49,446 nt of DNA, from positions 1 to 49,446 of IMG/VR virus record IMGVR_UViG_3300046542_000228; one strand, given 5' to 3'. The translations under genes were made by a program, and so were the position numbers. Under the pieces are notes generated by a model. The model saw nothing but the letters and a program-made list of their open reading frames with translations. It ran no database searches and had not been told where the DNA came from. Source of the stretch: a virus. How positions within the stretch are numbered: position 1 is the first letter of the stretch; each line of letters opens with the position of its first letter. Positions 20,894-36,365 of this stretch are shown here, piece by piece.

Positions 20894-20918
20894 TTTTGAT
20901 CCAGAGTTACAAACAATT

Positions 20919-20947
20919 GCGCCCCAGACATGTGGTGTCTGGGGCGC
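20919..20947 (-). terminator. Strong hairpin after the major tail protein gene
   Basis: A perfect 12-bp stem, GCGCCCCAGACA / TGTCTGGGGCGC with a 5-nt loop, sits between the major tail protein stop and the G gene. In the minus-strand RNA it is followed only by AATTGTTT, a weak U-tract, so partial termination or 3'-end protection that raises tail-tube protein over downstream products is likely. Confidence 0.7.
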
Positions 20948-20971
20948 ATATTTGCAAGAGAGTTAGAGGGC

Positions 20972-21772
20972 TTAGCGGTTGAAGAGGATAGCCGCCGCAG
21001 TGTTGTATTCGGAGTAGAGTGGATCACTCTCAACACCCGAGTACGGAGTAAACTCAAACGGCAGGTTGCCGAAGTTATCCGTCTGGAATGCGACACCCAG
21101 ACCCTTCGTGATCTTGACCTTCGGGAGGTAGATCGTGAACGGCGCGTTGTCTGCCGGTAGGAGGCCGACGACCTTGACGGCGAACTCGGGCTGAACGTCC
21201 GTGCCACCAACATCGATACGCTTGACCTTGCCGATGCGGGCGCCGATCGGGAAGCTGACCGTAGCGGACGGCTCATAACCAGCTGCGAGCGTGATCGTGG
21301 TCTTCGTTGTAGCATAGACGGCCGAGGCGATCTTGGCGATGTGGACCTTATCGTCCAGGCCGTTCTGCAGGAAGATGTAATCACCCGCCGAAAGCTTCGT
21401 GCTAATGTCAGTGGCAACTTCGATCGACTTCGTGGCCGTTGCGTAGGCAGCGGATGCGAGCCAGATCTCGTTGATGGAATCGAACTCAACGCCCGAGGCG
21501 TCCAGACCAGCGGCATATGCCATGTTGCGGAGCGTGTACTCGTACACTTCCATCGAGCACTTCAGGCCTTCGCCGTTCTTGACGGACATGACGACCGAGT
21601 TCTTGACGCCCTGGGTGAGCTCGACAAACGTCGGATCTGCAGTCATCTGGAAGTTCTTGACGAGGCCGATCGAGTGCTCGGCAGGGTTCAGCTTGTGCAG
21701 ATCAGCAGGAGCGCCAATCATGACGGTCGCCGTAGAGAGCAGGAAGTTTTTGGTCTTAGCGTTGCCAGCCAT
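20972..21772 (-). CDS. Major tail (tube) protein
   Basis: 266 aa from ATG 21772 (MAGNAKTKNFLLSTATVMIG); a start six codons earlier has no ribosome site. Beta-rich with a central Ig-like or insertion segment. Position upstream of the G/T chaperones, size and the strong downstream hairpin identify the tail tube subunit that polymerises around the tape measure. The sequence resembles phage tail-tube families only in general pattern (SVVMSVKNGEGLKCSMEVYE), so the call is mainly from context. Confidence 0.82.
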   Translation of the reverse strand: MAGNAKTKNFLLSTATVMIGAPADLHKLNPAEHSIGLVKNFQMTADPTFVELTQGVKNSVVMSVKNGEGLKCSMEVYEYTLRNMAYAAGLDASGVEFDSINEIWLASAAYATATKSIEVATDISTKLSAGDYIFLQNGLDDKVHIAKIASAVYATTKTTITLAAGYEPSATVSFPIGARIGKVKRIDVGGTDVQPEFAVKVVGLLPADNAPFTIYLPKVKITKGLGVAFQTDNFGNLPFEFTPYSGVESDPLYSEYNTAAAILFNR

Positions 21773-21812
21773 GGTGTGAGAGTTCCTCATTGTTCAGAAC
21801 AAGTGTTGCTGC

Positions 21813-21840: not shown

Positions 21841-21873
21841 TGCTAGGCACAAGATTATTCAAAATGGTGGGAA

Positions 21874-22074
21874 ATGCGTCGTCTTTCAACTAGCCTTCCG
21901 GACGAGTTATTTGCACTGCTTGAGGGCAGAGCAGAGATCAATCGTCGATCGATGAACAAGGAAGTCATCTTCCTTTTGGAGGCCGCGCTCGCTGCTGAGC
22001 ACGGCGATAATCTGGAGATCCTCCGGACTGTCATGATAGCCCAGGGTGGGCTATCGACTCTTAGCCCGCAGTGA
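21874..22074 (+). CDS. Arc-like ribbon-helix-helix DNA-binding protein
   Basis: 66 aa. MRRLSTSLPDELFALLEG forms the beta-strand and first helix, and RRSMNKEVIFLLEAALAAE the second helix with the N-x-E motif that defines Arc-family repressors; the rest is a short helical tail. It should dimerise and bind operator DNA in the major groove. It is on the plus strand inside the minus-strand tail operon, with its own promoter, GGTGGG ribosome site and a 14-bp convergent overlap with the tail-completion gene. Likely a late-gene or autoregulatory repressor. Confidence 0.87.
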   Translation: MRRLSTSLPDELFALLEGRAEINRRSMNKEVIFLLEAALAAEHGDNLEILRTVMIAQGGLSTLSPQ

Positions 22075-23931: not shown

Positions 23932-24651
23932 TCACCCCGTGATTGCGTCGGTGTTCGAGGTGACCAGGAAGAGCGACGGTGTAACCTCGCTCTTGGTCAC
24001 GACCTGATCCAGCGCCTCCTGGTAGCGCTTCTCGGCTTCGATCTTCAGCTTGTCGAGCTCCTTGAGATCGACACGGCTGAACTCTTTGACGCCGTTCTTT
24101 TCGGATTGGGCCATTCGCTGCTTGGCGGACGGGAGCACGTCGAGCACGGCTCGCATGCAAATGAGTGTGTTGGCCGCGAGCTCCTTGGTGGTGCCAGAGG
24201 TGAGTGCGACGACGAGCTCGTCGACGCCGACTTCGTCCTGGATGGTGAGGAACGCGGAGAAGATGTCGATGTCAGCATCCGGGAGCTCATGCTCCTCGAT
24301 ACCGATGAAGGCTCGAACCTGCTGGCCGGTGGTGGTGTGGATAGCTTCGGGCACAACGCGATAGGCGCGGTTGAGCTGAACGTCCTGACCATCCACGGTG
24401 AATTTCACGACCACGCTGCGGCGCTCAAAGCTTCGCGCTGGGTCGATCTGATGAGCAGACGACGGAACGAGGATCGTCATCTGGTAGGTCGTTGACGTGG
24501 TGACATACGGGATGTCTTCCAGTCCAGGCATGGCCACGCCCGCCTGGTTGCGGACGGTATAGAGTACAGACCCAAGATCAGGGGCAACCGGCCGGTCGCC
24601 AACCATGAATGGGATGGTCAATGCAGACGGTGTGCCCCCGATGATGTCCAT
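23932..24651 (-). CDS. Putative head completion protein
   Basis: 239 aa, not recognised. The N-terminal 120 residues look beta-rich (TTSTTYQMTILVPSS), followed by a helical region with many charged residues (KELDKLKIEAEKRYQEALDQ). Start overlaps the previous stop (TAATG). Synteny suggests a connector or head completion role. Confidence 0.5.
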   Translation of the reverse strand: MDIIGGTPSALTIPFMVGDRPVAPDLGSVLYTVRNQAGVAMPGLEDIPYVTTSTTYQMTILVPSSAHQIDPARSFERRSVVVKFTVDGQDVQLNRAYRVVPEAIHTTTGQQVRAFIGIEEHELPDADIDIFSAFLTIQDEVGVDELVVALTSGTTKELAANTLICMRAVLDVLPSAKQRMAQSEKNGVKEFSRVDLKELDKLKIEAEKRYQEALDQVVTKSEVTPSLFLVTSNTDAITG

Positions 24652-24938
24652 TACTTAGCCTTCCGTGCCTTCGGAGCCGCAGGTGCGTTCTCGTCGAACT
24701 TCGAAAGGAAGGATGCGATCGCGAGCTCGCGGTCACCGGAGTCGATCCAGAAGGCCAGGAACTCTTCATCGGTCGCTTCGTCCGGAACGTCGGCAATTTT
24801 CGTCACCTGGCCGAGCGCGATACGCGAATCGATGAAATAGGAGCGGGCGATTACGGAGGGGCGAGTTGACTGGAGATCATGCCCAGTGGACAGGTCCGTC
24901 AGCATGAAGTCGCCAGTGGTTTCAGCAAGAATTTTCAT
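24651..24938 (-). CDS. Small hypothetical protein after the capsid gene
   Basis: 95 aa. Short beta strands at the start (MKILAETTGDFMLTDLSTG), then VPDEATDEEFLAFWIDSG and an Ala/Lys/Pro-rich tail (APAAPKARKAK). It follows the capsid terminator and has a good AGGAG ribosome site. Similar small proteins occupy this place in other siphophages; function unknown. Confidence 0.65.
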   Translation of the reverse strand: MKILAETTGDFMLTDLSTGHDLQSTRPSVIARSYFIDSRIALGQVTKIADVPDEATDEEFLAFWIDSGDRELAIASFLSKFDENAPAAPKARKAK

Positions 24939-24948
24939 GGGTTCTCCT

Positions 24949-24985
24949 AATAGAAAGCCCGTCGTCCAGGGTTTGAACGACGGGC
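24949..24985 (-). terminator. Rho-independent terminator after the major capsid gene
   Basis: Stem GCCCGTCGT / ACGACGGGC (9 bp, 11-nt loop, 24957-24985) is followed in the minus-strand RNA by TTTCTATT. Another 8-bp repeat (CTTCTCGG/CCGAGAAG, 24996-25019) spans the capsid stop codon. Together they would let the capsid mRNA be made in excess over the genes downstream. Confidence 0.78.
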
Positions 24986-25006: not shown

Positions 25007-26194
25007 TTAAGCCGAGAAGTCGAAGATCGAGCGGGTGTCTCCGAAGTTCATCTTGTAGCCAGCGTTCGTGGTCTTGGTGACCGTGACCGACTGGTTGGTG
25101 ATGGAGCGTTCGGACTCCTCGATATCCGAGCCGGCTTCGATCAGCTCTTCCATGGTGTCACCCTTGGAGAGACCGACGAGCTTGCCGACCGGTGCATCGC
25201 TGGCGATCGCGAAGTTGGCGATGCCCTGGAGCAACGGAACGCCGCCGAGCTGGAAGCCTTGAGCCTGTGCGATCTCGACTTCGGTCTTGCCCTGCAGAGC
25301 AGCGTTCGGCATGACGAACAGCTCGAGCCATTCCAGGTAGGCGTCCCAGTTGCCGACAACCGTATCGACCGGGGTACCAGCCTTGGCGCGGTTGATCAGC
25401 CACTTGATGAGAGCGCGGCGACCAATCTTGTTCGCAGTGGCACCAGCGTCGAGGCTGGACTGCGTAACGACCGGAGCAGCGGCATTCACGCCATCGCCGT
25501 TTACCAGCAGCGACACCGCGGCCGAAACCTTGGACATCTCAGCTTCGCGCAGCATGCGGACGAAGTACGGCGTCATCAGATCGAGACGGGCGCGACGGCC
25601 AAACTCGTACGAGTAACGCAGACCACCGCCGTGCTTGAAGATCTGCACCGAGGTCTGGCTCGTGCGGATCGTGCGAACCGGTACGCGACCAAGTTCTGCA
25701 ACCGCACGGGTCGTCTGGTAGTCTTCCTGCTTGTCGTCGACGACCGTCGAGATCATTTCGTTACCCGAAATGGTACGCGACTGGGAGATCAACGGCTGGA
25801 CGCTCTCAATCTGGCTCTGGCGGTACTTCCAGCGAACCATGTCGTCGATAACTTCCGGGAACAGCGCACGGGTACCGGCGTAGGTCTGGAAGGTGTCGGA
25901 TGCGGCGTCGAGGACAACGCCCTGGGCGAAGTCATCGCGAACCGGCAGGTTCAGGAAGGCCAGTGTTGCTTCGTAGCCGTTCAGGAAGCCATTGGCGTCC
26001 TGGTAGCGCTCAGAATGCTCGGACTGCGAAGCGTCGATTGCCAGCGTGAGGAAGTCACGCAGATTGAGGCCAAAGTTCTTGGCTTCGCGGATCAGCTTGC
26101 CAGCTTCCGCCTTGCTGACGGCTTCGTCTTCCGTCAGTAGGACGCCGAGGGTCTCTACGCCACGACGCTTGATTTTGGTGAGGGACTCGGTCAT
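25007..26194 (-). CDS. Major capsid protein (HK97 fold)
   Basis: 395 aa. The N-terminal 90 residues are charged and helical, resembling a delta domain. Conserved-looking segments of the HK97 fold follow: the P-domain around VPVRTIRTSQTSVQIFKHGG, the spine helix around LMTPYFVRMLREAEMSKVS and the region NWDAYLEWLELFVMPNAALQ. Gene order protease-decoration-capsid supports the call. Strong terminators on its 3' side fit a highly expressed structural protein. Confidence 0.87.
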   Translation of the reverse strand: MTESLTKIKRRGVETLGVLLTEDEAVSKAEAGKLIREAKNFGLNLRDFLTLAIDASQSEHSERYQDANGFLNGYEATLAFLNLPVRDDFAQGVVLDAASDTFQTYAGTRALFPEVIDDMVRWKYRQSQIESVQPLISQSRTISGNEMISTVVDDKQEDYQTTRAVAELGRVPVRTIRTSQTSVQIFKHGGGLRYSYEFGRRARLDLMTPYFVRMLREAEMSKVSAAVSLLVNGDGVNAAAPVVTQSSLDAGATANKIGRRALIKWLINRAKAGTPVDTVVGNWDAYLEWLELFVMPNAALQGKTEVEIAQAQGFQLGGVPLLQGIANFAIASDAPVGKLVGLSKGDTMEELIEAGSDIEESERSITNQSVTVTKTTNAGYKMNFGDTRSIFDFSA

Positions 26195-26234: not shown

Positions 26235-26633
26235 TTAGATCAGGACGACGACGGCGTCGGTCCCGATGATTTCCGCGACGAAGTTCTTGTTGGCGTCGTT
26301 CGCACCGGCCTTCTTGACCGTGCCGGCGCCACCGCCGACGACCGTGTCGCCAACTGCAGGTTCGGAACCGGTCTTCATCGGCAGGGTGTTCATGAACTTC
26401 AGCGCGACAGCGCCGACGAGCTGACCTTCGACCTTGCGATCTTCGACGGTCGCGAGACGGCCGATGATGATGTCGCCGTCAGCAGCGAGCTTGACCTTGT
26501 TCGGGGCCGAGGTGTCGATCGACACGGCCTTGCTTACGTCAGCGGCGGTAATGCCGGCTGCGAGCGTGAAGGTCAGGTGGAAGTCTTCGAAGTGGAAACC
26601 ACGAAGACTGACTTTGGTGTGGAAGGATGCCAT
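26235..26633 (-). CDS. Head decoration protein
   Basis: 132 aa, beta-rich and glycine/alanine-rich (DIIIGRLATVEDRKVEGQLV, VGDTVVGGGAGTVKK), as in lambda D or DUF2190-like capsid stabilisers. It is encoded between the protease and the capsid gene, the normal place for decoration proteins, which bind outer capsid surfaces at the threefold axes. Confidence 0.75.
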   Translation of the reverse strand: MASFHTKVSLRGFHFEDFHLTFTLAAGITAADVSKAVSIDTSAPNKVKLAADGDIIIGRLATVEDRKVEGQLVGAVALKFMNTLPMKTGSEPAVGDTVVGGGAGTVKKAGANDANKNFVAEIIGTDAVVVLI

Positions 26634-26658: not shown

Positions 26659-27768
26659 TTAGCGGGCCGAGCGGAAAGCAGCGGCGGTGCGGGACGGCTG
26701 GCTCACGAGATCGGCCGGCTTGTCGGAGGCGTTGCCACCAGCCTTGATCACGAGAGCAGCGGAGTGCTCGTCGATCAGAGCGGACAGCTCGGTGACCGTC
26801 TTGGGCAGTTCGGCGTTGAGCTTGCCGACCTTCGTCAGGACGCCCTGGGCAACAGCCGAGAGAGCAGCGACGGCTGCATCGCGCTCGGTCGTGAGGGCGG
26901 CGGTGTCGACGGCGTTGGCAGCAGCCAGCTGAGTGTTCAGATCAGCGATCGTTGCGTCACGTTCAGTGATGGTTGCTTCGAGCGTGGTGACCTTGCCAGT
27001 GACGTCCGTGAGGTCGCGCTTGGCGTTCGTGAGGTCAGCAGTCGTGGTCGTCAGGTTGGCGACGAGAGTTGCGAGGTCCATAGAATCTTCCTTGGAGGCA
27101 GTTGCGAGCAGGACGAGGGAGTTCGGATCCATCCCAGAGGCAGCGAGCTGCTCGAGGGACTGGCCGAAGTGCGACCGGTCGCGTGAAACGATCCGTGCAT
27201 TCTGGGCGCCGCCCTGGCCGACGAGGGACATCTCGAAAAACTTGTCGAGACCGACCATGCGGGCGTAGACGCCGTTCTTGCCGACCTGGTTTCCGTCGTT
27301 GTCTGTTCCGGACCAGATGTTGTCGGACGAGGAGTCGGGGCCGAAGTAGTCGAAGCCCGACTTGGAATTGAGCATCTGCTTCGCGAGAACAGAGACGGAC
27401 ACCTGGTCGACGCTGCCAGCCTCGATCTTGGTCGCCTGATCGTTGGCGGTCGGATCGAGGAAGAAGAGCACGCGGAGCTCGGAATCGACGCCCGTATCGA
27501 CGACTTCACCGTGGAAGACGCGGCCGATCGGGAGCGGTGAGGTGTTGTGCATGATCTGCACGGGGCGAGATTCGCGCTTCAGTTCGCCGGCCATCTCCAG
27601 GAGGAAGGCGCGATCGGCGCGAGCGCCCTTGTAAAGCGGGTGCTCCTTGCGGATCGGCAGGGTGTTGAAGGCGATCGCTTCGTAGACACGCAGAGCATCA
27701 ACATCGACGTCACCTGCCGAAGCGGTGAGTAGATCCTTGATGGCCTGTGTTTTCGCGATTTGCTTCAT
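26659..27768 (-). CDS. Prohead protease fused to scaffold
   Basis: 369 aa. The N-terminal ~220 residues fit the herpes-assemblin/HK97 prohead protease: the His in VQIMHNTSPLPIGRVF (H74) and the serine in SVDQVSVSVL (S124 or S126). The C-terminal third is a coiled coil (about 233-300, DLTNAKRDLTDVTGKVTTLE) with an Ala-rich tail, typical of internal scaffolding that is removed at maturation. So scaffold and protease are one gene, and no separate scaffold gene is seen. Translation may be controlled by the start-codon hairpin described separately. Confidence 0.84.
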   Translation of the reverse strand: MKQIAKTQAIKDLLTASAGDVDVDALRVYEAIAFNTLPIRKEHPLYKGARADRAFLLEMAGELKRESRPVQIMHNTSPLPIGRVFHGEVVDTGVDSELRVLFFLDPTANDQATKIEAGSVDQVSVSVLAKQMLNSKSGFDYFGPDSSSDNIWSGTDNDGNQVGKNGVYARMVGLDKFFEMSLVGQGGAQNARIVSRDRSHFGQSLEQLAASGMDPNSLVLLATASKEDSMDLATLVANLTTTTADLTNAKRDLTDVTGKVTTLEATITERDATIADLNTQLAAANAVDTAALTTERDAAVAALSAVAQGVLTKVGKLNAELPKTVTELSALIDEHSAALVIKAGGNASDKPADLVSQPSRTAAAFRSAR

Positions 27769-27802
27769 CTGTCAGTGATCCCGTAAGGTTCACTGACAGA
27801 TG
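27766..27802 (-). promoter_or_regulatory. Start-codon hairpin of the prohead protease gene
   Basis: A perfect 13-bp inverted repeat, CATCTGTCAGTGA (27766-27778) and TCACTGACAGATG (27790-27802). In the mRNA the last three bases of the 3' arm are the ATG start codon, while the loop exposes GGGA, the only Shine-Dalgarno-like sequence. The stem should repress translation until opened by a ribosome, protein or RNA. Upstream to 27861 is AT-rich with two further short palindromes (TTCAAT/ATTGAA and CACAAT/ATTGTG). Confidence 0.65.
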
Positions 27803-27861
27803 GAAATTTAGATTAGGAAGTTCAATTAAGCTATTGAAGCACAATGATTAATTGTGATTCA

Positions 27862-29532
27862 TTACGCAGCGGCAAGCCAGTTGTCGATCGCTGCGCCGGT
27901 GGGTTGGTCGATCATGATCTGGCCACCCAAACCACCAGTTGCCACGCGGAGATGGGTTCCGTCGTCACCGGCATAGCTATTGCCTGGCCACATCACGAGC
28001 TGGTCGTTGACTGCCGGGATGTTCGCCCAGGCAGAAGCCGCGGTGAAGTCCCCATTGGTGTTGTTGTTCCCACCCTTCAGGACGCCGATGTTGGCGCCAC
28101 TGATGAACTCGGCGACCCCATTGGCCATGGTGTTGCTTCCGACCGCGTAGTCCGTGATGAAGCGGCTCGTCGTGCGGGGCGAGGCATTGAGGACCGTTGC
28201 GACGACAGGTAGCGGCAGTGCAGCCTTCTCACCTGCAACTGCAAAGCGGCCGGAATCCCGGTATGGTTCGACGGCGTCTGCCCAGTCGATGTAACCGTCG
28301 AAGGCTCCAGCGCGGATCGCAGCATTGAACTGGCCGCGAGAGGAGTTCGATCCTGGCTCGTATCCAGGGTTCGGCTGTTGCCAGTAGACCGAGCTCGTGG
28401 TCGTGCGGGCGGCGATCGTGATGCTGCCAGTTGCGGTCGGCGTAACCGAGCCCACAAACGGGAACGCGATCTTATTGTTGACCGTATCGACTGAGCGGCA
28501 GATGAACGAGCCGTTGTACTCGGTCTGGGTCGCACCGGCGATGCTGTAGGCCTGGTTGACGACGAAGATCGATGCATCCGGAACGGTCATCGTCATGACG
28601 TTGCCAGCGGAGGTCACTGGGCCGACCGCGAGTGCCGCCTTCTTGCTCACGCGAGGCAGCATGGTGATCTGCGTGAACTTGATGCCTTCGGCGTTCGCCA
28701 TTGCGCGAAGCACCTGCAAATCTGCGAGGATCTGTGCGGGCGTGCGGCCAGCGGTTAGATCGTTCGTCGACCAGTTACAGACAATGCGAGTGATGCCGAG
28801 TAGCTTCGCAAGAGCAATTTGACGGACAAAATTGGCGCCACCGTTTGCAGCGTAGGTTTGGACGGTCGTGCCGACGATCGACACATGGTAGACGGGGCAC
28901 TTCCCGGCAGAGGCATTCATAAGCGCCGCGCCGTTGTTGGTCGCGAGTGAGTCACCCACGCCCATTACAGCTTCCTTGCGGAGCTCCGACGCTTTGGCTT
29001 TCGTGTCGACGCCCGCGAAACCGAGGCGGGTGATGTACTTGGCGCCATTCGGTATGGTGGAGGTGAAGTTCAGCTTGAAGGACGCGCCGGCTGGGATGCT
29101 CGTCGGCAAAGCAACGTCGGCCGACTTGATCGAGCCACCCGATGCACCTGGTACGACGGTATCAGGGATCACAGTCTGAGTGCCACCGACCGGGTATTCG
29201 ACGTTGCCCGAGTTGGTGAAGTCGTTCCCAGCCGCTGAGGTTCCGGTTGTGGTCACGCCCCAACCCTGGAAAACGACTGCGAGTGTGTCGATCGCTCGAC
29301 CGCTCTCATTGACCAGAGTCACGGAATAGGTCTTGGCAGTGCCATCGCCGGTTTGGATAACGGTCTCGGCGTTATAACCCATCCCGTATTGGCGCGTTGC
29401 GAGACGATATATCGGAGTTTCAGGCTGCGGCGGGGGTGGAACGACAATTGCCGGCTTCTTGATGCTGACCGACGATCCGAGGCGTAGCTTGAGACCTCGG
29501 AGTCCCGTGACGGAAGTCCGAAGGCGCCGCAT
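27862..29532 (-). CDS. SGNH/GDSL esterase-like tail spike or appendage
   Basis: 556 aa. An N-terminal basic/proline-rich leader is followed by a beta domain and an SGNH hydrolase: block I GVGDSLATN (S195), block III WSTNDLT (N257), block V GDDGTHL (D524, H527). A beta insertion of about 100 residues splits the fold. SGNH enzymes on phages remove acetyl groups from capsular or lipopolysaccharide sugars, so this may process host surface glycans during adsorption. It lies inside the head gene block next to the fibre genes. Start overlaps the previous stop (TAATG). Confidence 0.82.
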   Translation of the reverse strand: MRRLRTSVTGLRGLKLRLGSSVSIKKPAIVVPPPPQPETPIYRLATRQYGMGYNAETVIQTGDGTAKTYSVTLVNESGRAIDTLAVVFQGWGVTTTGTSAAGNDFTNSGNVEYPVGGTQTVIPDTVVPGASGGSIKSADVALPTSIPAGASFKLNFTSTIPNGAKYITRLGFAGVDTKAKASELRKEAVMGVGDSLATNNGAALMNASAGKCPVYHVSIVGTTVQTYAANGGANFVRQIALAKLLGITRIVCNWSTNDLTAGRTPAQILADLQVLRAMANAEGIKFTQITMLPRVSKKAALAVGPVTSAGNVMTMTVPDASIFVVNQAYSIAGATQTEYNGSFICRSVDTVNNKIAFPFVGSVTPTATGSITIAARTTTSSVYWQQPNPGYEPGSNSSRGQFNAAIRAGAFDGYIDWADAVEPYRDSGRFAVAGEKAALPLPVVATVLNASPRTTSRFITDYAVGSNTMANGVAEFISGANIGVLKGGNNNTNGDFTAASAWANIPAVNDQLVMWPGNSYAGDDGTHLRVATGGLGGQIMIDQPTGAAIDNWLAAA

Positions 29533-29879
29533 TAGGCGGCGCTCACGACGGAGAGTTTGTCACCGACCAGACAAGGGATGTCGCGAACTTCACCAGCTGC
29601 GAGATGGATCCGCGTGTCCTCACGGTTGGTGCTCTTGGCTTTGCTCGTGTCGGGAGCCTTGCCTCGGGAGATGAAAATTGCGTTTGCTGTCGGCGCTCGA
29701 ACGCGAAAGATCGGAAGACCACCAGCGACGAGGGAAGAAACAGACCCAGCTGCGACTGCAGCCAGAGTGGTCGTGCCATTTGCGGCGATCGTCTCGGACC
29801 AGATTGGGTCGAACAGCTCGCTGGCACCGGCCTTCAGAGCAACGCCCATTTCGATATGAGCACCTGTAAATTCGGCCAT
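29532..29879 (-). CDS. Small beta-rich protein beside the SGNH spike
   Basis: 115 aa, not recognised. Ala/Thr/Val-rich with IWSETIAANGTTTLAAVAAG and a final LVGDKLSVVSAA, suggesting a compact beta domain such as a spike adaptor or capsid-bound protein. Tight overlap with the SGNH gene indicates a joint role. Confidence 0.6.
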   Translation of the reverse strand: MAEFTGAHIEMGVALKAGASELFDPIWSETIAANGTTTLAAVAAGSVSSLVAGGLPIFRVRAPTANAIFISRGKAPDTSKAKSTNREDTRIHLAAGEVRDIPCLVGDKLSVVSAA

Positions 29880-29982
29880 TGTGGATCTCCTGGCATGCGG
29901 TATGGACTGTTGCCCTAGAGATGGCCTTCGCGGAGCCGGCGTTCAATTAAAGCATTGATTCGAAATGACTAATATTGAACCG

Positions 29983-30555
29983 CTACGCGGCCATGTAGGC
30001 CACTTGGTCGGTGATCGTGGACTGCTGCTGGAGCCAAACGCCGTCGATCTCGGCCGGTGTCTTTCCGAAGAACGACCCGATCTGATCGACCAGGGGATTC
30101 GAGCGTTCGAACCTGGTCGCACGGCGCCAGTAGATGCGGGCGATCAAACGATCGGGATCCTGCATCTCCTCGATCTTGGCGTCGATCTGCTCGAACGTGA
30201 TGTTCAGGCGGAGCATCCCGAGCTCGAAGTCGATCGGCTTGAGATCCAGGTAGGTGATCGGCAGCTCTTCTTTCTGAATCACTGTCGCAGTCTTGAGCTT
30301 ATACTGCCACTCCAGATCCGTCTGGTGGTAGACTTCGAGATTACTAAGATCCGGAGTCAGATTGCGCTGAAGCGTATCCAATATAATCGCATCATCAGCA
30401 TCCGCCGTTAGTAAAGGAGGGATATTGCGAATCCCGGCGTGTAACGAGGAAACGCCTGGGTAACGGTCGTCGGTGAACTCGATGCGATACTCGATCATAT
30501 CAATATAGCCGGCCTGGTTTAGCAGCACACGCACGAGGGTCCAGTTCTTGTTCAT
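29983..30555 (-). CDS. Hypothetical protein in fibre block
   Basis: 190 aa, unrecognised. Acidic, alternating strands and helices, with PITYLDLKPIDFELGMLRLN and two Trp-rich segments near the C-terminus (IARIYWRRATRFE). It overlaps the upstream fibre-tip gene by ATGA. Could be a fibre assembly protein. The 103 bases downstream to the next gene contain an inverted repeat GTTCAAT/ATTGAAC (29942-29948 and 29975-29981). Confidence 0.6.
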   Translation of the reverse strand: MNKNWTLVRVLLNQAGYIDMIEYRIEFTDDRYPGVSSLHAGIRNIPPLLTADADDAIILDTLQRNLTPDLSNLEVYHQTDLEWQYKLKTATVIQKEELPITYLDLKPIDFELGMLRLNITFEQIDAKIEEMQDPDRLIARIYWRRATRFERSNPLVDQIGSFFGKTPAEIDGVWLQQQSTITDQVAYMAA

Positions 30556-30947
30556 GGCGTCGTCCTATAAAGCCCGAAGTGTTGAAGACCACTTATGGTC
30601 GTCATGAGTGTGCCGCGGTAATAAGTCTTCCCACCCGCCAACACCGAGGTGGTAGCGGCCGGTGTTCCATTTCCGTAAACAGCCGCGCCGCCCCAAACGA
30701 TGTCGAGACGGCCTTTACCGTCACCTCCACCCGTTGGGTTCATCTTCCAGTCAGTGCTGTTGAGCGCATAAGTCTCTCCAGAGGCGGGTTCGCGAACGAT
30801 GTTCGAGGCGCCATAGAGCTGCGAGAAATACATAGGACCAGACGCAGGCAACGAGCCCTTGCCGCGGTAGGACGCGAAGCTGTAGCCAAGGCCAAACTCC
30901 GCATGGAACATAGCCATCGTTAGCTGACCGGATGAAGGAAGAGTCAC
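30552..30947 (-). CDS. Tail fibre tip / adhesin-like protein
   Basis: 131 aa. N-terminus MTLPSSGQLTMAMFHAEFGL and the following ASYRG form the short motif found at the ends of many phage fibres and adhesins (LPSSG-x-IS-x-x-x-x-x-EFG). The rest is glycine-rich beta sequence. It lies right after the S74 fibre gene (start overlaps its stop), so it may be the distal binding unit that follows the self-cleaved fibre. Confidence 0.7.
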   Translation of the reverse strand: MTLPSSGQLTMAMFHAEFGLGYSFASYRGKGSLPASGPMYFSQLYGASNIVREPASGETYALNSTDWKMNPTGGGDGKGRLDIVWGGAAVYGNGTPAATTSVLAGGKTYYRGTLMTTISGLQHFGLYRTTP

Positions 30948-32152
30948 TAGACAGCCCTCCCCTTCAGCGCCTCGACCTCAGCGGCCAGCTCTTTCACCGC
31001 CTGTATCAGAACCGGTGTTAGCTTGTCGTAAGCAACAATCTTCCACCGCTCGCCGCCGTTCTCATCATCAGGGATTGATCTACCAACGAGCTCCGGCAAG
31101 ACAGCCTCAACCTCGTCAGCCAGAATGCCGATATCGCGCTCACCAGGACGGCCGATCAGGTTCGTCTTATGATTCCAGGTGAAGCGGACACCGCGCAGAC
31201 TCTTGATGATATCAAGGGCGTCTTCGATCTCAACAACGTCATTCTTCAGACGTGGATCGGAATAAGCGGCGATGTTACCCGAGGCGACCATCGTGCCATC
31301 GACAGCCGTATACCAGGACCAGGCGCCACGCGACCAGCCACCCATGCCCATGTAACCGTCGCCACGAAGATACAGCTTCATGCCGTATGCCGAGCCGCAC
31401 AGAAAGCCGAGGGAGGCAACGTCAGTGTCACCGGAGTTCGCGCCACCGTTGCGGATGATGATCGATGCCGCCGAGCTGCTGGTCGTGGTAACGTAGGGAT
31501 CCATATAAGCCCCCCCAGCAGTGGGAAGCTTCGCATTAAGAGCCGTCTGCAGACCAGTTGTGTCCGCTATTGCGTGACTATGGGCGAGCGGCGCGCAGGT
31601 CGCAATTCCGCTCGTGACAAATGCCGTTGTTGCAATCTGGGTCGTGTTGGTGCCAGAAGTGGCGGTGGGTGCCGTGGGTGTGCCAGTAAGAGCCGGAGAC
31701 GCCAGCGGAGCCTTGGTTGCGATCGCGCTAGCAAGCTCGGTGTCGTTTGCATCTAACCATGCGCCGATCTCTGCCAGTGTATCGTATAGGGCAGGCGCCC
31801 CGACCTTCAGATTGTCCACCGCGGCTTTGACAGCAGCCATCGTGGCGATCTGAGTGGTGTTGGTCCCCAATGCCGCTGTTGGTGCAGTCGGCGTTCCTTG
31901 CAGGTGGGCGTCCATTAGAGGCGCAAAAGCTGCCATGTATGTGGCAAGATCACTGAGGTCAGCGGTTGTGTGCGTGTGGACGGTTGGAGCGGCGCCGATC
32001 GCGGTTCGGACGGCAGTGGGATCCGCGAAGTCGGAACCGTTATTCGCCTTCTTAACGGAGGAGTTAACGACACTCGCGATAGCAGTCCGTACAGATTTGA
32101 ACTCAACGGCCAATCGGTTTGTGAGGGCGACGATCGTATCAGCTGCAGCCAT
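30947..32152 (-). CDS. Tail fibre with S74 intramolecular chaperone
   Basis: 401 aa. The first ~200 residues are Ala/Thr-rich repeats with GTPTAPTA and THTHTTADLSDLAT patterns common in fibres. The C-terminal 104 residues are a peptidase_S74 chaperone: SDPRLKNDVVEIEDAL (S298), GILADEVEAVLPELV, YDKLTPVLIQAVKELAAEVE. Such domains trimerise the fibre and then cut themselves off at the serine. Neighbours are a collagen-like protein upstream and a tip protein downstream. Confidence 0.87.
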   Translation of the reverse strand: MAAADTIVALTNRLAVEFKSVRTAIASVVNSSVKKANNGSDFADPTAVRTAIGAAPTVHTHTTADLSDLATYMAAFAPLMDAHLQGTPTAPTAALGTNTTQIATMAAVKAAVDNLKVGAPALYDTLAEIGAWLDANDTELASAIATKAPLASPALTGTPTAPTATSGTNTTQIATTAFVTSGIATCAPLAHSHAIADTTGLQTALNAKLPTAGGAYMDPYVTTTSSSAASIIIRNGGANSGDTDVASLGFLCGSAYGMKLYLRGDGYMGMGGWSRGAWSWYTAVDGTMVASGNIAAYSDPRLKNDVVEIEDALDIIKSLRGVRFTWNHKTNLIGRPGERDIGILADEVEAVLPELVGRSIPDDENGGERWKIVAYDKLTPVLIQAVKELAAEVEALKGRAV

Positions 32153-32679
32153 TAGACAATTCCACTCTCAAATAGTGCAACCAGATCCGGCAGCACTAAG
32201 TCTCCGATCGGTCCCATCGGGCCAACATCCCCTTGAATTCCCTGGACGCCTTGGTCGCCTTTGGCTCCGGTGTCACCCTTATCGCCCTTCGGGCCTTGGT
32301 TCCCCTGAATGCCTTGGAGGCCTTGGTCGCCTTTGGCTCCGGTGTCACCCTTGGCTCCGGTGTCACCCTGGATCCCCTGAATACCTTGGGGGCCTTGGAT
32401 GCCCTGGTCGCCCTTGTCACCCTTAGCCCCAGTGTCACCCTTGTCACCCTTAGCTCCAGTGTCACCCTTCGGCCCTTGGATGCCTTGGATCCCCTGGATG
32501 CCTTGGATGCCTTGGTCACCCTTTTCGCCTTGGATGCCCTGGATCCCCTGCTCGCCCTGGATCCCTTGGGCACCGCGGGCGCCTCGCTGGATGAGCTCGA
32601 CGACTTCAGGCTTCGCTGGTTCGACAACCTCGATCAGGCGTGGCCCATTCGAGATTTCGACCAGGATGACTTCAGTCAT
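32152..32679 (-). CDS. Collagen-like Gly-X-Y repeat fibre protein
   Basis: 175 aa from ATG 32679 (8-nt overlap with previous gene; longer starts are arginine-rich antisense-like). N-terminal ~30 residues [20 protein letters not shown] anchor, then about 42 uninterrupted G-X-Y triplets with GIQ, GAKGDT and GPKGD units, then a short C-terminal cap ([12 protein letters not shown]). Collagen triple helices form stiff rods in phage fibres. It overlaps the S74 fibre gene, so it may be the shaft on which that fibre sits. Confidence 0.85.
32222..32590. repeat. Direct repeats in the collagen-like gene
   Basis: The DNA for the Gly-X-Y region is built of repeating 9- to 33-base units; one perfect 33-base unit occurs at 32248-32280 and again at 32320-32352. 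Such DNA is prone to slippage, changing shaft length. Confidence 0.8.
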
Positions 32680-33004
32680 GATTGATGCTTCCGGAAGCCA
32701 GGAGGTTGCCGTAGACGACGGTCTTCTCCTCCGCTTCAAAGAGGCGGACGATCTCGTAGTTCGGCAGGTGGGTTTTGGCTGTCAGGCCCTTGGTGATCGC
32801 GCTGCTGACGTGAACCTTGAACTCCCCTGCGAGGGCATCCGAAATTTCACCGTCGATCTCAGTGACCACGCCATCACACTCGATGAGCATCGTGAAAGTG
32901 CTGTCGGTCAGGTCGTACGGCACACTATCGGAGTCGAGTAGGCGAAACGTCAGGATCTCGGAGTTGCCGCGCCAGATGTCGATGTCACGATACGGGGGTT
33001 TCAT
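32672..33004 (-). CDS. Small beta-domain protein between portal and fibre genes
   Basis: 110 aa. Begins [20 protein letters not shown] and reads as an all-beta, immunoglobulin-like fold with [15 protein letters not shown]; similar domains form the N-terminus of baseplate/fibre-attachment proteins (BppU-like, from memory). It overlaps the portal (ATGA) and the collagen gene, so it may connect fibres to the particle. Confidence 0.6.
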
Positions 33005-36273: not shown

Positions 36274-36365
36274 GTAGTTGGCTATATGGGGAGCCGAGAC
36301 ATGATTTGCAAATCTGGTGAGACATTCGGAAATTTAGGTCTGAGTGTTGTCGCACGTCGTGCTTG

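Follow-up and report, generated by a model that had tools for sequence, protein, structure and literature searches.

Hairpins that sequester a ribosome-binding site (RBS) are a classical form of translational control, and several phage systems combine RNA structure or gene overlap with virion assembly. The lambda genes C and Nu3 are nested protease and scaffold genes, and herpesvirus UL26 and UL26.5 are analogous. The MS2 coat protein binds a hairpin that holds the replicase start, the scaffolding protein of P22 acts post-transcriptionally to repress its own synthesis when it is unassembled, and the hairpin promoter of the N4 virion RNA polymerase has a 5-7 bp stem and a 3-nt loop. In T4, hairpins that sequester the RBS of the genes e, soc, 49 and I-TevI contain a late promoter in their 5′ strand; for gene e, the inhibitory structure forms on long transcripts, whereas late ones begin inside the 5′ strand (PMC3014915).

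The locus described here is the start of a prohead protease-scaffold gene in a 49,446-nt viral record (IMG/VR IMGVR_UViG_3300046542_000228, analyzed at full length and hereafter called the window). It resembles the T4 set in that the start codon and Shine-Dalgarno (SD) sequence are locked in a local hairpin, the gene is reachable by read-through transcripts, a promoter-like motif lies in the DNA encoding the left arm, and similar leaders occur in relatives. It differs from the T4 set in belonging to an unrelated siphophage family, in its motif, which is not TATAAATA, and in its gene, which encodes a prohead protease instead of a lysozyme or an endonuclease; in addition, the transcript start is here a predicted one, and control of the protease by the hairpin is predicted from sequence and folding. 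As in lambda C/Nu3, a protease domain is followed in the same frame by a helical segment for the scaffold, which has an internal start of its own and a predicted product, although the likeness is one of arrangement, not of sequence comparison, and the hairpin on the protease start is an addition. The protease fold resembles herpesvirus assemblins. Like the MS2 operator, the hairpin is short and holds an AUG in its 3′ side, but its stem is much longer, its loop is not conserved across clades and it is not known to bind a protein. The stems of 9-13 bp and loops of 6-21 nt in the start-burying cases do not fit an N4 virion RNA polymerase promoter. Our literature search found no report of a leader of this kind in JWF-like phages, and the papers searched did not describe re-formed, unrelated hairpins across a prohead protease family in combination with a promoter-like overlap and a nested scaffold start.

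Placement of a perfect hairpin on the protease start

The protease gene is grouped with the major capsid protein (MCP, phrog_3922), portal (phrog_3753) and terminase (phrog_675) genes of ~80-kb siphophages of the JWF/Seuss/Lumi kind, and a search of phage and plasmid records found no relatives of the window at the DNA level. In an AlphaFold model of the protease-scaffold built from 26 relatives (mean pLDDT 81), the N-terminal domain is assemblin/prohead-protease-like and extends to roughly residue 194; a disordered linker at 204-227 and one long scaffold helix at 232-313 follow. Fold searches with this model found prohead proteases among BFVD entries, the named ones reaching E ~1e-9, and, as the best matches in the PDB, herpesvirus assemblins, which were weak (E 1e-3 and above). 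Residues H74 and S124 and PIGRV-type motifs are conserved, which we take to fit the prohead protease/assemblin family. The features of the locus are collected in Table 1.

Table 1. Coordinates of the protease-scaffold gene, its start hairpin, the promoter-like motif and the proposed nested start in the window
Feature	Position	Strand	Basis or remark
Prohead protease-scaffold gene, 369 aa, phrog_37797	26659..27768	(-)	N-terminal domain, linker 204-227, scaffold helix 232-313
Decoration-like virion protein gene, next gene of operon	26235..26633	(-)	start hairpin absent across relatives
MCP gene, phrog_3922	25007..26194	(-)	start hairpin absent across relatives
5′ (left) arm, CATCTGTCAGTGA	27790..27802	(-)	exact reverse complement of 3′ arm
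Loop, ACCTTACGGGA	27779..27789	(-)	predicted CCU/GGG apical mini-stem; SD-like GGGA at 27779-27782
3′ (right) arm, TCACTGACAGATG	27766..27778	(-)	start codon at its end
Protease-scaffold ATG, last three bases of 3′ arm	27766..27768	(-)	MKQ N-terminus kept in distant relatives
TTAATTGAA, upstream motif half	27821..27829	(-)	17 nt before CCATCT
CCATCT, downstream motif half	27798..27803	(-)	overlaps outer left arm
Conserved AT-rich stretch with dyads	27830..27856	(-)	upstream of motif
Second TTAATTGAA	29942..29950	(-)	before 115-aa gene 29532-29879; no hairpin there
CCATCT of second copy	29919..29924	(-)	identical 17-nt spacing
Weaker motif copy, 3 mismatches	21862..21893	(-)	~70 nt before major tail protein gene 20972-21790; conserved in relatives
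CCATAT, possible further motif relative	36284..36289	(-)	just before terminase start
In-frame internal ATG, codon 230	27079..27081	(-)	proposed start of free scaffold protein
SD sequence AAGGAA	27088..27093	(-)	before internal ATG

The initial annotation, made from the sequence of the window, had described a perfect 13-bp hairpin whose 3′ arm ends in the ATG, and we confirmed this. Read on the minus strand from 27802 to 27766, CATCTGTCAGTGA-ACCTTACGGGA-TCACTGACAGATG is a perfect inverted repeat with an 11-nt loop, in which the arm at 27766-27778 is complementary to that at 27790-27802 at 13/13 positions. The arm sequence has no other occurrence in the whole 49-kb record. Folding the coding strand from -45 to +15 gave -25.7 kcal/mol (z = -6.8) and a probability of ~0.003 that the start codon is unpaired; the plus strand folded over 27730-27830 gave z = -3.5. 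The GGGA, a weak SD of about -4 kcal/mol, lies in the loop as had been noted, but it is not fully exposed: folding predicts a 3-bp mini-stem at the apex, formed by its GGG and CCU, that leaves both SD and ATG paired. An Rfam search returned no family match for the hairpin, only a sub-threshold, chance-like mir-1788 at 21.7 bits against a gathering score of 57.

The same annotation judged exact pairing of this kind unlikely to arise by chance. That judgment stands, since a perfect stem of at least 13 bp ending on the start codon appeared in 5 of 100,000 dinucleotide shuffles of the protease leader. A perfect 13-bp repeat alone is not unique in the window, where a second one, terminator-like and 3′ of the major tail protein gene, occurs at 20918-20948. 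What is unusual is the placement of the repeat on the start codon, not its length as such. Terminator-like hairpins follow the MCP and tail protein genes of the same operon, and the protease hairpin might likewise be a terminator, mRNA stabilizer or processing hairpin that touches the start codon by chance. We looked for a U-tract 3′ of the stem and found none (the next bases are AAGCAAAUCGCG), which speaks against an intrinsic terminator at 27766-27802. The start codon itself lies within the pairing in several leader groups, which also speaks against a chance contact, and we find this explanation scarcely credible.

Start hairpins in close and distant relatives

Comparison of the folded leader with those of relatives, which had been put forward as the way to check the hairpin by stem covariation, showed that the pairing is retained and that compensatory changes have occurred. 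The hairpin is found at the same place in relatives with protease identities of 88-94% (L001-L007) and 73-74% (L015-L019). Pairs were counted after eight distinct leaders had been aligned by hand on their structure, over twelve pairs (MAFFT misaligned the 3′ arm); in this alignment 90 of the 96 pair cells were kept and six, in L004, L016, L017 and L018, were broken or gapped. Within this close clade four of the twelve pairs (6, 8, 10 and 11) carry double-sided changes, such as G-C to T-A in L004, G-C to A-T together with T-A to G-C in L015, and T-A to G-C in L016. Small one-sided insertions, which an RNA stem tolerates, are present in L004, L015, L018 and L019.

These changes bear on the idea that the dyad acts at the DNA level, as a regulator binding site or part of a promoter, with the RNA hairpin incidental. 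The left arm has CCATCT in common with the second motif copy, which lacks a hairpin, and dyads are present upstream. However, the arms change together while their sequence drifts, the one-sided insertions in L004 and L015 preserve the RNA stem and disrupt the register of a DNA dyad, and unrelated hairpins occupy the same place, on the start codon, in distant relatives. We consider a DNA element distinctly improbable.

In more distant relatives with leaders that have no sequence in common with the window, another hairpin is often located on or against this start. The start codon itself is buried in three further leader groups, represented by L184 (CATTCGAAA..TTTCGAATG), by L200 (CGTGCGGTCA..TGGCCGCATG) and by L034/L036/L053/L180, where a GTG start is buried in L180 (CACGACATGCC..GGTATGTCGTG, 11 bp), in L053 (10 bp) and in L036. 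Hairpins ending 0-5 nt before the start were found in L023, L035, L037, L173, L186, L187 and L195, and the folded leaders of JWF, Achromobacter 2-1, Lumi, KB12-38, Seuss, L174, L175, L190 and L193 had no start hairpin. Tens of nucleotides upstream of the start hairpin, the leaders of L022 (2240-2369), L034 and L036 contain a second palindrome (e.g. GTGCATCAC..GTGATGCAC), which is perhaps an operator.

Loop and stem sequences are unrelated between leader clades, and a conserved, protein-recognized loop of the MS2 type was not found among them. Feedback on protease translation by a phage protein (scaffold, protease or capsid) that binds the hairpin as an RNA operator would have precedents in the autorepression by P22 scaffolding protein and in the MS2 coat protein hairpin, and it would suit the loop of the close clade, which is partly conserved with an ACC...GGA core. 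Against it stand the unrelated loops and stems, the SD itself, which explains the conservation of the loop, and the 13-bp stem, which would repress without any protein. An operator, which corresponds to the protein-binding site that the initial annotation had offered as its alternative to a timer, is in our judgment improbable.

Start-codon hairpins were concentrated at the protease gene. In leaders made non-redundant at 80% identity, the probability that the start is unpaired was below 0.05 for 11 of 32 distinct protease leaders (34%), against 3% for MCP and 3% for decoration protein leaders, and z was below -2 at 44%, 3% and 0% of these starts, respectively. Perfect stems that end on the start codon and reach 9 bp or more were present in four of 28 protease leader clusters (the window, L016, L184 and L200); nine other late genes had none at their 159 starts, and shuffling produced such a stem in 0.33% of cases. 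As the clusters are related by descent, we do not claim a formal p-value. The z-score comparison of the protease with other genes was strong (6e-6). Mann-Whitney tests of minimum free energy or start accessibility over all genes were only weakly significant (p ~0.04), owing to the many relatives without the hairpin. One other gene, at 24651-24938, had z values as strong as those of the protease, which are due to the terminator-like hairpin 3′ of the MCP gene.

A promoter-like motif in the left arm

The outer left arm is overlapped by the downstream half of a bipartite motif, TTAATTGAA-N17-CCATCT, which has two exact copies in the window (15/15 fixed bases), both on the gene strand and before genes. 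The motif recurs in relatives with the same spacing, with TTAATTGAA-N17-CCATTT as the second copy in G003 and a weaker conserved copy before terminase, also on the gene strand, in G001; its overlap with the left arm was seen in the close clade only. The AT-rich stretch upstream keeps a fixed spacing to the left arm in relatives while the spacer sequence drifts, and is possibly an activator site. The motif probably represents a late-promoter family with members upstream of the host-range, protease and tail protein genes and perhaps also of terminase. We found no resemblance of the motif to sigma-70 promoters and no phage sigma factor (Sigma70_r2) in the close relatives; a search for a T7-type RNA polymerase (PF00940) gave no match, and the positive controls likewise gave none. 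A collection scan with TTARTTGAA-N15-TTCCATC returned mostly unrelated contigs among the matches listed. The distant relative G006 encodes a protein with a sigma-70 region 2 domain at 72064-72252 (-). CCATAT precedes the terminase start by ~10 nt and a clear SD is missing, so the terminase mRNA might be nearly leaderless.

If CCATCT is a -10-like half, transcripts would start at about 27794-27790, and because this half overlaps the outer left arm, RNA from the local promoter would lack a complete arm. When simulated transcripts were shortened to start at least 3 nt into CCATCT, the predicted probability that the start codon is unpaired rose from 0.00 to 0.3-0.7 in 8 of 8 sequences, and at +9 the hairpin energy had dropped to a range of -6 to -10 kcal/mol. 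The initial annotation had counted transcription starting downstream of the left arm against a function of the hairpin. Such a start may well be what occurs here, but transcription from inside the arm would be a switch, as in T4 gene e, and not a refutation.

We suggest, with a probability of about 0.5, that the best explanation overall is an RBS-sequestering silencer of the full-length protease that is relieved by transcription starting inside the left arm, with scaffold supplied from a nested start. The hairpin would act in cis on translation of the full-length prohead protease. Read-through transcripts from the portal and host-range genes upstream would carry both arms, so that SD and ATG would be locked and protease not made; the same transcripts would still yield MCP, decoration protein and scaffold, the last from codon 230. 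From the local promoter, TTAATTGAA-N17-CCATCT, RNA would begin inside the left arm, the hairpin could not close and protease would be made. Points that weigh against this account are the lack of sigma-70 likeness in the motif, the failure to find a phage sigma factor in the close relatives, the relatives that have no start hairpin, and the overlap of motif and arm in the close clade only.

If transcription instead started upstream of the arm, the hairpin would be on every transcript, the release step would fail and the hairpin would be a plain throttle. A static or kinetic throttle would lower initiation of the full-length protease relative to scaffold and capsid, with no switch, by way of rare initiation before hairpin closure or through standby binding. 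This alternative requires no promoter assumption and fits the needed protease-scaffold ratio, the internal RBS and the clades in which a hairpin lies just before the start (L023, L035, L173, L186 and L187). At equilibrium, however, hardly any initiation would be expected with the window stem at about -25 kcal/mol, and the duplicated motif overlapping the left arm would go unexplained; we regard a throttle as somewhat unlikely. The earlier proposal of a translational timer is supported in part: the pairing is kept with compensatory changes and other hairpins lie at the same place, and a timer or throttle is the best reading of them.

A proposed nested scaffold start and the possible timing of the protease

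Codon 230 is placed exactly at the junction of the linker and the scaffold helix, and an equivalent internal Met is present in 31 of the 37 genes examined. The predicted free scaffold of the window would have ~140 aa and begin with MDLATL. The SD before it has a median of -4.9 kcal/mol, compared with -1.7 for other internal Met codons (p ~1e-11) and -3.4 for the true start, and the structure around the internal start is -6.9 kcal/mol vs -13.3 at the true start. GGA triplets lie in one shared reading frame in 22 of 29 cases, and the internal SD signal could in part reflect conserved amino acids. The initial annotation had assumed that protease and scaffold are limited jointly relative to capsid. 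It overlooked the internal start with its own SD; with scaffold made from codon 230, a limit on the protease need not apply to the scaffold as well.

In phages, the timing and proportion of the maturation protease relative to scaffold and capsid are mostly attributed to protein assembly. The recurrence of start-codon hairpins of unrelated sequence within one protease family points to translational control, which could explain how a shell-cutting enzyme made too early or in excess is avoided. It is possible, and we propose it tentatively, that an ever-changing, re-formed start hairpin, a promoter in the left arm and a nested scaffold start form a family-wide design that times the protease so that shells precede the cutting enzyme. 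If the nested start is used, most members of phrog_37797 should encode a scaffold protein that annotations have missed.

Two further observations concern the surrounding operon. Between portal and protease, 27862-33004 (-) holds tail-fibre-like genes, with collagen-like repeats and an SGNH-hydrolase-like protein; this block varies among close relatives and is absent from JWF, Lumi and KB12-38. Terminator-like hairpins lie on the minus strand at 24957-24985 and 20918-20948, directly 3′ of the major capsid and major tail protein genes, respectively, and relatives as well as the annotated JWF and Seuss also have a terminator-like hairpin 3′ of the capsid gene. The hairpins after the capsid and tail protein genes probably damp transcription beyond the two most needed proteins.
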